A stretch of 6,299 bases of DNA. Source: a bacterium (lineage in GTDB: Bacteria; BMS3Abin14). Made by a program: the position numbers and the translations under genes. The stretch's first letter is position 1. Each line of letters starts with the position of its first letter. The stretch lies in NCBI GenBank assembly GCA_029210545.1, contig JARGFV010000128.1, positions 1-6,299 on the forward strand, written 5' to 3'. The notes under the pieces are model-generated. The model searched no databases and was not told where the DNA came from. It saw only the letters and a list, made by a program, of their open reading frames with translations. This document shows, piece after piece, positions 3,413-6,076 of the stretch.

Positions 3413-3417
3413 CCGGC

Positions 3418-3445
3418 AGTTTACCGTTCACAGTTCACAGCATAC
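3418..3445 (+). repeat. Degenerate heptamer array (AGTTCAC unit)
   Basis: Four consecutive 7-base units lie in phase: AGTTTAC (3418-3424), CGTTCAC (3425-3431), AGTTCAC (3432-3438) and AGCATAC (3439-3445). The consensus AGTTCAC is the reverse complement, in a shifted phase, of the ACTGTGA units at 6042-6069. The array begins six bases after the lipoprotein stop and fills nearly half of the 67-base gap before the next gene. Confidence 0.7.
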
Positions 3446-4863: not shown

Positions 4864-4917
4864 ATGAAACGTTTTTTGGAATTTTCATGTATACCGGTAA
4901 CAAACAAGTGGTTTTAG
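4864..4917 (+). other. Possible 17-codon leader ORF overlapping the regulator start
   Basis: An ATG at 4864 follows a strong Shine-Dalgarno-like AAGGGGGG (4851-4858) by five bases and opens a frame reading MKRFLEFSCIPVTNKWF before TAG (4915-4917). It overlaps the regulator start at 4887 in another frame. The regulator's own ATG has only GGA (4878-4880) upstream. It could be a coupling leader peptide. Alternatively, the T6 run at 4872-4877 may be one T short: a seventh T would join this ATG in frame to the regulator, extending it by eight residues. Confidence 0.3.
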
Positions 4918-5561
4918 CCCGCTTCCCCCTGTTTTCAGGTCTTGAAGAAGAGCATCTGAAGACCCTGGCCGAAATCGCCGCCCCAAAGAGGATCGCGAAA
5001 AAGTCACTGCTTTTCCGCGATGGAGAGGAGGCCAGGGGTTTCTATCTCCTCGTAAGCGGGAAGGTCAAGCTGTATAAGGTCAGTTCCTCCGGGAAGGAGC
5101 AGATCCTCCATTTCGTGCTGCCGGGCCAGTCCTTTGCCGAGGCCGCCCTTTACATGGACAGGGCCTACCCCGCGACCGCGGAGGCCATCGAGGAATCCGA
5201 GCTGTTCTACATCCCGCGGGAAGCCCTCTCCAGGGCCATGTCCTCCGATCCCGCGCTGGCCATGAACCTTGTTGCCCACCTTGCGCGTTACCTCCAGCTG
5301 CTGACGCGGAAAGTCGAGGAACTTTCTCTCATGGACGCGACATCGAGGCTGGCGCGGCACCTCCTCGGAGCGATGGACCAGACAACCGGGCTGGTCCGCC
5401 TTGCTGCCGGAAAGGGACAGACTGCTTCCAGCCTCGGAATGGCCGTCGAGACCTTCTCCAGGACACTCACACGGTTCAAGGACGACGGCGTCGTCAAGGA
5501 AGCATCCCCGGGCGTCCTGCAGGTCCTGGACCGGGAACGTCTTAAAGGATATACCGGATGA
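4887..5561 (+). CDS. Crp/Fnr-family transcriptional regulator, DNR-like
   Basis: This cytoplasmic regulator has 224 residues, normal for Crp/Fnr proteins. The effector domain (about 12-125) has the cNMP-binding fold (LFRDGEEARGFYLLVSGKVKLYK). The cAMP phosphate-binding Glu and Arg positions are not kept: the loop reads SFAEAALYMDRAYPATAEA, as in DNR-type nitric-oxide regulators. There is no N-terminal cysteine cluster, so it is not an oxygen-sensing FNR. The dimerisation helix runs from about 126 to 146, followed by SLMDATSRLARHLL (147-160), very like DNR. The winged HTH has recognition segment AVETFSRTLTRFKDDGVV (186-203) and ends VLDRERLKGY. Ligand is unknown; heme/NO is plausible by family. 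The neighbouring YgbA gene supports a nitrosative-stress role. I see no TTGAT-N4-ATCAA site in its upstream region. The start is uncertain because of the stronger ribosome site before 4864. Confidence 0.9.
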   Translation: MYTGNKQVVLARFPLFSGLEEEHLKTLAEIAAPKRIAKKSLLFRDGEEARGFYLLVSGKVKLYKVSSSGKEQILHFVLPGQSFAEAALYMDRAYPATAEAIEESELFYIPREALSRAMSSDPALAMNLVAHLARYLQLLTRKVEELSLMDATSRLARHLLGAMDQTTGLVRLAAGKGQTASSLGMAVETFSRTLTRFKDDGVVKEASPGVLQVLDRERLKGYTG

Positions 5562-5571
5562 AACCTGTCCA

Positions 5572-5648
5572 GAACGAAGTAAAAGGAACGAAGAACGAAG
5601 ACATTATTTTTTCTTCGCGCTTCGCACTTTGATCTTCGAGCTTTTGCC
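5572..5648 (+). repeat. Eleven in-phase degenerate heptamers, with inverted halves
   Basis: The sequence divides exactly into eleven 7-base units ending at the base before the next ATG. The first half uses GAACGAA (5572-5578, 5586-5592, 5593-5599). The second half uses TTCGNNC-like units (5614-5620, 5621-5627, 5635-5641), which are inverted relative to the first. Consequently CGAAGAACGAAG (5589-5600) pairs with CTTCGCGCTTCG (5613-5624) with two central mismatches and a 12-base loop. The hairpin lies between the regulator and the YgbA gene. The stretch also occupies the place where the YgbA ribosome binding site should be, and none is obvious. Confidence 0.7.
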
Positions 5649-6006: not shown

Positions 6007-6076
6007 GTTTTGGGTTTTGTGTTTCGAGTTTTGGGTTGGATACCGTGAACTGTGAACCGTAAACTGTAAACGGTTC
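6007..6076 (+). repeat. Ten in-phase degenerate heptamers upstream of tRNA-Cys
   Basis: Seventy bases divide into ten 7-base units. The first block is GTTTTGG-like (6007-6013 and 6028-6034 identical, with GTTTTGT at 6014-6020 and GTTTCGA at 6021-6027), then a transition unit at 6035-6041. The second block is ACYGTRA: ACCGTGA (6042-6048), ACTGTGA (6049-6055), ACCGTAA (6056-6062), ACTGTAA (6063-6069), and ACGGTTC (6070-6076). The second block is the reverse complement of the AGTTCAC array at 3418-3445. The phase is kept across the change of unit sequence. Confidence 0.75.

Follow-up and report, generated by a model that had tools for sequence, protein, structure and literature searches.

The gap between the genes for a CRP/FNR-type regulator and a YgbA_NO protein contains one complete copy of a 72-bp imperfect palindrome with heptamer-built arms, and this element is dispersed over about 40 loci in the 2.72-Mb draft genome. 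The pentamer boxes of the arms are conserved as sequence, and the facing dinucleotides between the boxes tend to stay mismatched within each copy. The original prediction treated the gap as an array in its own right, but comparison of the copies identifies it as a single member of a family of fixed length. The element may act as an intercistronic hairpin that a putative factor recognises by its shape.

The element in the CRP–YgbA gap

The window, that is, the whole stretch of DNA analysed, is the entire 6.3-kb contig C128. It carries uvrC, mobB and genes for an SLT transglycosylase, a CDP-alcohol phosphatidyltransferase, the CRP/FNR-type regulator (4887..5561, + strand; Pfam cNMP_binding 6.5e-24, HTH_Crp_2 6.1e-12) and YgbA_NO (PF11756; 5649..5990, + strand; Pfam 1.2e-15). 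An Rfam search of the window returned two tRNAs and nothing else. The element occupies 5571..5642 and scores 81.8 bits on the + strand and 57.8 bits on the − strand with a covariance model. It begins 9 nt after the CRP stop codon (5561), and the YgbA ATG (5649) lies 6 nt downstream of its end. The sequence between the element end and this ATG contains no Shine-Dalgarno motif, in agreement with the proposal that the repeat replaces the usual ribosome binding site region of YgbA.

On the + strand, the left arm (5571..5600) reads AG aaCGAAG taAAAGG aaCGAAG aaCGAAG and the right arm (5613..5642) reads CTTCGcg CTTCGca CTTTGat CTTCGag CT, and they flank the non-heptameric 12-nt loop ACATTATTTTTT (5601..5612). 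The consensus arms, each 30 nt long, are AG nnCGAAG nnCAAAG nnCGAAG nnCGAAG and CTTCGnn CTTCGnn CTTTGnn CTTCGnn CT. The CAAAG/CTTTG box is position-specific and is found on both arms. The window copy, parsed against 35 copies, agrees with the consensus at 38 of 40 pentamer bases, and the second unit of its left arm, GTAAAAG in the earlier reading, is a decayed nnCAAAG unit. The ends are sharp: when copies are lined up by their loops, only the 30 nt on either side are conserved and the signal drops to roughly zero one or two columns further out, and column information is near zero outside 5571-5642 in an alignment of 26 copies.

The gap has 40 of 80 matches at lag 7, compared with 19.5 ± 4.1 in dinucleotide shuffles (0 of 1000 shuffles as high), and no signal at lags 6 and 8. 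The period itself is therefore as first described, but the accompanying statement that unit sequence drifts was imprecise, as each unit has five conserved and two free positions. Likewise, the hairpin between GAACGAA units and inverted TTCG units is borne out, because the gap folds as one hairpin (RNA, −23.2 kcal/mol, z −2.3), with predicted RNA and DNA folds consisting of 4-6-bp helices split by internal loops. The division of the gap into eleven in-phase units with no leftover does not hold. Copy comparison instead resolves two arms, each of four units plus AG or CT, around the loop, and the supposed last unit, TTTTGCC, lies outside the element, since conservation stops at 5642 and, on the other side, at 5571. 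Loop length ranges from 6 to 28 nt across copies, mostly 10-12 nt, and is 12 nt in 9 of 28 copies. Both arms share one frame in the window copy because its loop happens to be 12 nt, so that the eleven-unit phase is a coincidence.

A profile search of 2.14 of the 2.72 Mb (79%) found 42 distinct loci at E<1e-3, of which 35 parse as two arms and 28 are well formed. BLAST with the CRP–YgbA gap as query found a few dozen places, and the covariance model gave 60 matches genome-wide, both strands counted, scoring up to 88 bits. Most copies have diverged at spacers and loops; those on contigs C44 and C9 form one near-identical pair. The element shows a modest preference for gene 3' ends: 20 of the well-formed copies are no more than 30 nt away from a 3' end, where random positions in those gaps predict 13.0, and at the same distance from a 5' end there are 7, compared with 8.8 expected.

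The pentamer boxes show 85% identity between copies and 91% to the consensus, whereas the adjoining spacer dinucleotides show 43% between copies. Because simple decay after dispersal would erode boxes and spacers equally, this inequality argues against it and suggests that the boxes are under constraint and not just inherited, although the contrast could also stem from a copying process that varies spacers and loops. Boxes are paired in 93.8% of cells. Compensatory changes inside boxes occur in 2 cells, the same as in shuffles, and so make no case for selection on box pairing; the boxes are conserved as sequence.

The facing dinucleotides are complementary at only 27 of 168 bases. Permuting the right arm within each copy, which keeps copy composition, gives 41.4 ± 4.2, and shuffling between copies at the same position gives 45.3 ± 4.7 (P<0.001 for each null, run separately). 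Because a null made by column shuffling over mixed orientations can be inflated, the comparison was repeated within copies and on copies of clear orientation, where 17 of 138 bases are paired against nulls of 31-33, and 5 of 66 against nulls of 11-12. The avoidance persists on either strand when G-U is counted as a pair. The longest unbroken paired run averages 5.5, compared with 5.9 ± 0.14, and its maximum is 8. Such covariation against pairing at set positions is hard to derive from slippage or simple inheritance.

Heptamer arrays in the genome and its relatives

Autocorrelation was computed over 2.14 of 2.72 Mb, with genes called by a simple hexamer model, so that starts and small genes are approximate; YgbA was missed by this model, and the CRP–YgbA gap therefore entered the analysis as intergenic. 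Across the 340 kb classed in this way, the signal exceeds dinucleotide shuffles by 55 SD at lag 7, 38 SD at lag 14 and 23 SD at lag 21. Other lags deviate too (25 SD at lag 6, 19 SD at lag 8), with lag 7 dominant. Coding DNA shows the codon period only. The genome-wide check proposed with the original prediction, for an intergenic period-7 excess, is thus strongly positive. A total of 506 local lag-7 segments fall in 390 of 1273 intergenic stretches (~31%), compared with 1-2 in shuffles, and their density is 14.9 per 10 kb in intergenic DNA and 0.34 in coding DNA. Lag 8 gives 173 segments, lag 14, a harmonic, 297, and each of the remaining lags from 4 to 15 gives 9-30; a 50-kb piece of E. coli K-12 contains zero lag-7 segments. 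The period-8 arrays are plentiful in their own right and include GACGCGGA and GTATGGGG types (G000 C17:7463, C94:79 and C34:4233).

The heptamer units of the genome fall into at least 60 distinct consensus sequences. A universal rule of five fixed plus two free bases was considered for all heptamer arrays and rejected, as the two positions that vary most show no preference for lying side by side. Neighbouring arrays are often inverted copies, with 18 of 78 pairs matching in inverted orientation at 6 or more of 7 bases, compared with 4.5 expected upon re-dealing. Long intergenic hairpins number 312, compared with 6 in shuffles; 91 of them overlap a heptamer array, and part of the remainder belongs to other repeat families. 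Among all heptamer arrays in co-directional gaps, 20% lie within 5 nt after a stop codon, compared with 7% expected, and there is no enrichment before starts. This post-stop enrichment may be due in part to arrays that supply the stop codon. Strand bias by purine content is weak at most (178 vs 143).

Contig C128 itself carries four further heptamer arrays, all with other unit sequences. Tandem Repeats Finder located one at 2518-2532 and, with period 7, a GTTTAC/GTTCAC type (CAGTTTACCGTTCACAGTTCACAG) at 3417..3440 on the + strand; a GTTTTGG type (6007-6037) and a ACCGTGAACTGTGAACCGTAAACTGTAAAC type (6042-6071), both on the + strand, lie 3' of YgbA. A dispersed palindrome of GGAAAGGGAAAACGACGCTTTTCCCTTTCC type occupies both ends of the contig (1-60 and 6225-6299) and may be the cause of the contig breaks. 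Similar repeats are present in contigs C7, C19, C22, C51 and C85, and elsewhere the palindrome is repeated with a spacer of about 51 nt containing CCAAAGTC..GACTTTGG.

The family consists of this genome and 11 others, and the lineage is isolated, as the search beyond the family lists 'same domain' only. Relatives were compared through selected loci, pattern counts and one covariance-model search. In this search they score no more than 51 bits, with almost nothing outside the family, and strong copies of the element are found only in this genome among the 12. TTCACRG arrays give 159-250 matches in G000, G001 and G003, 64 in G011 and near zero in other family members, including G008, which belongs to the same genus as G003 and G011. 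Because the counts are uneven even within one genus, unit families appear to turn over fast. Same-family loci hold 16 lag-7 segments in 19.6 kb, compared with 0 in 24.3 kb at three loci outside the family. Beyond the family, G027 has GTCGAAG / CGAAGGTCGAAGGTCGAAG arrays (contigs C5, C28 and C50), near relatives of the element unit, which indicates that the wider class extends beyond this lineage.

The gene order CRP–YgbA is kept in six same-family relatives. Their gap, which the original prediction had proposed to compare for gain or loss of units, carries other heptamer sequences in two of the six: G008 has a heptamer hairpin of another kind there (P=0.0015), and G010 has heptamer arrays (0 of 2000 shuffles as high). 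The gaps of G001, G006, G007 and G009 show no significant heptamer array, and the six together show no pattern of unit gain or loss. The G007 gap (L180 1278-1500) has a CTCTGTG-type repeat with mixed 7-9-base spacing. Another gap, on contig C86, has the 72-bp element in this genome and GATCTCA heptamers in CP070682.1. A hairpin of CGCAG units plus two bases at G008 L176 53-181 scores 31 bits with the model; it keeps the 5+2 layout, with the box changed on both arms. The 26-mer CGAAGTTCGAAGAACGAAGACGGAAG is nearly unchanged across genera, occurring in G004, G009 and this genome (C52:2798-2909) with a near match in G001, and its stability contrasts with the fast-changing heptamer arrays.

Possible mechanisms and origins of the element

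The element was searched for signatures of established element classes. A scan for Rho-independent terminators found 0, and most other copies lack a T-run after them. No curated Rfam family matches the element. There is no excess of 2-9-nt direct repeats at its ends that would mark a target-site duplication. The flanks carry information of about zero, with GTAG/CTAC near 1 of 26 copies, and thus lack a REP-type GTAG foot. These results together favour a lineage-specific, multi-copy, REP/STRR-like intercistronic hairpin recognised by its shape, which we place ahead of the alternatives as a tentative reading that stops short of being probable. A single strand, most likely the CRP–YgbA mRNA or possibly single-stranded DNA during replication, would fold into a series of short helices, each of 5 bp in the consensus, with 2x2 mismatched loops between them and a short terminal loop. 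A putative factor would recognise this bulged rod copy by copy, so that boxes and mismatches would be kept while spacer and loop sequence stayed free. Under this reading the hairpin would work in the RNA and could influence crp or ygbA: it would protect the end of the upstream message, in the manner of REP/BIME hairpins at gene ends, and would bring the YgbA start closer to the CRP stop. No gene for the recognising factor was found in this analysis.

A less likely explanation is that the element is a non-autonomous mobile element of MITE or REPIN kind. The 72-bp unit would then be copied into gaps by a transposase that works on single-stranded hairpins and recognises them by their mismatches. 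The exact arm length and sharp ends fit this explanation, as do the near-identical C44/C9 pair, the restriction of strong copies to this genome among the 12, the lack of the 72-bp element from the same gap in relatives and the Y1 transposase genes in the genome. However, the element has neither a target-site duplication nor a fixed flank such as GTAG, and spacers and loops differ among most copies, which is not what a recent burst would leave. Of the two Y1 genes (C27 and C150), the one on C27 was read; it lies between apparent IS200/IS605-type ends with no flanking heptamer array, and a link between the element and this transposase was rejected on that ground.

It is unlikely that the element is a double-stranded operator array, in which a nucleoid protein or global regulator reads CGAAG every 7 bp, as proposed in Geobacter metallireducens. 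Conserved boxes, free spacers and opposite-strand pairing do resemble the Geobacter classes (PMC2700814). However, an operator gives no reason for the facing spacers to avoid complementarity, its 7-bp pitch would not be a multiple of the helical repeat, and the same genome holds at least 60 different unit consensus sequences. Least likely is neutral slippage, in which 7-base units expand without function in unselected intergenic DNA and template switching produces inverted copies. In its favour, no other longer simple repeat is as common in bacteria as the heptamer, slippage has been proposed (PMC4679880, PMC4692102), and about 31% of intergenic stretches here contain arrays of diverse units, but slippage does not account for the fixed arm length and ends, the CAAAG/CTTTG box as third unit (counted from the loop) on both arms or the mismatch avoidance, and it would homogenise spacers, whereas neighbouring spacers in one arm resemble each other no more than spacers of different copies do.

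These explanations are not fully exclusive, and an element mobile in origin can have been selected afterwards as a shape-recognised hairpin. A broader version of the shape-recognition reading, which we regard as doubtful, is a structure-specific system of an isolated lineage, a bulged-hairpin code with fixed 5-bp helices, obligatory 2x2 mismatches and a 7-base pitch, in which boxes would be replaced between species while the architecture is kept, and which an undescribed factor would read at dozens of junctions. To our knowledge, no function has gained acceptance for the heptamer repeats that have been seen between bacterial genes over several decades. The present genome provides a dense and statistically clean case with one family of fixed architecture, and lets a long-standing puzzle be put in testable form by asking which factor would read a bulged hairpin of 7-base pitch. 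A further caution is that ribosome-binding sites of annotated genes can be displaced by intergenic DNA of period 7.

Comparison with known repeat systems

REP/BIME and REPIN sequences are palindromes scattered through intergenic DNA, frequently close to the 3' ends of genes, and the element shares all of these features. It differs in lacking the GTAG flank, and no linked RAYT was seen at the Y1 gene that was read. We know of no heptamer units in REP, and the initial description of a degenerate heptamer hairpin whose sequence sets it apart from REP, ERIC and CRISPR stands. Intergenic heptamer arrays have been described in Beggiatoaceae (TAACTGA; PMC4679880) and Xanthomonas (GGGAATC; PMC4692102), some of them replacing the ribosome-binding site. 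These are mostly direct arrays of one unit, with only one inverted repeat reported for TAACTGA in the Beggiatoaceae genome (PMC4679880), unlike the inverted arms of the element.

The cyanobacterial STRR sequences, named at the outset as the nearest analogue, are indeed close: they consist of 7-bp tandem units with many intergenic copies and form hairpins between genes, for which roles in transcript stability or translational coupling have been suggested (PMC2670836). Tandem 7-bp units in many intergenic places are likewise found in this genome (506 vs ~1 shuffled). The element differs in its CGAAG/CAAAG boxes with two free bases, its fixed 30-nt arms, its enforced mismatches and its lineage. 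Of described heptamer families, the three units compared, TAACTGA, GGGAATC and GGGGAYT, occur in 0 of the 506 arrays.

In Geobacter metallireducens, paired tandem 7/8-mers on opposite strands have been proposed as binding sites of global regulators (PMC2700814). These sites resemble the element in having four to five 7-/8-base units on opposite strands and dozens of copies, and their octamer pairs have a counterpart in the octamer arrays of this genome. Their consensus sequences (GTTGCTYN, MTYCTGA and GGACCGG) differ from the element, the distance within a pair is variable whereas the element has a short loop, and no mismatch rule is reported in the accessible text. Among the 506 arrays, MTYCTGA occurs 3 times and GGACCGG 0 times, and neither is the 72-bp element. 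In the P6b stem of the Nostoc tRNA-Leu intron, degenerate heptanucleotide repeats base-pair into a hairpin (PMC3488679); this is one locus that varies in unit number, whereas the element is dispersed and of fixed length.

Heptamer repeats and intergenic heptamer hairpins are thus already known from cyanobacteria and Geobacter, whereas the unit sequence, the fixed arms, the position-specific third box and the enforced mismatches were not found in the open-licence literature and are new in relation to it. The paired 7/8-mers of Geobacter and the intron hairpin of Nostoc are better analogues of the element than STRR.
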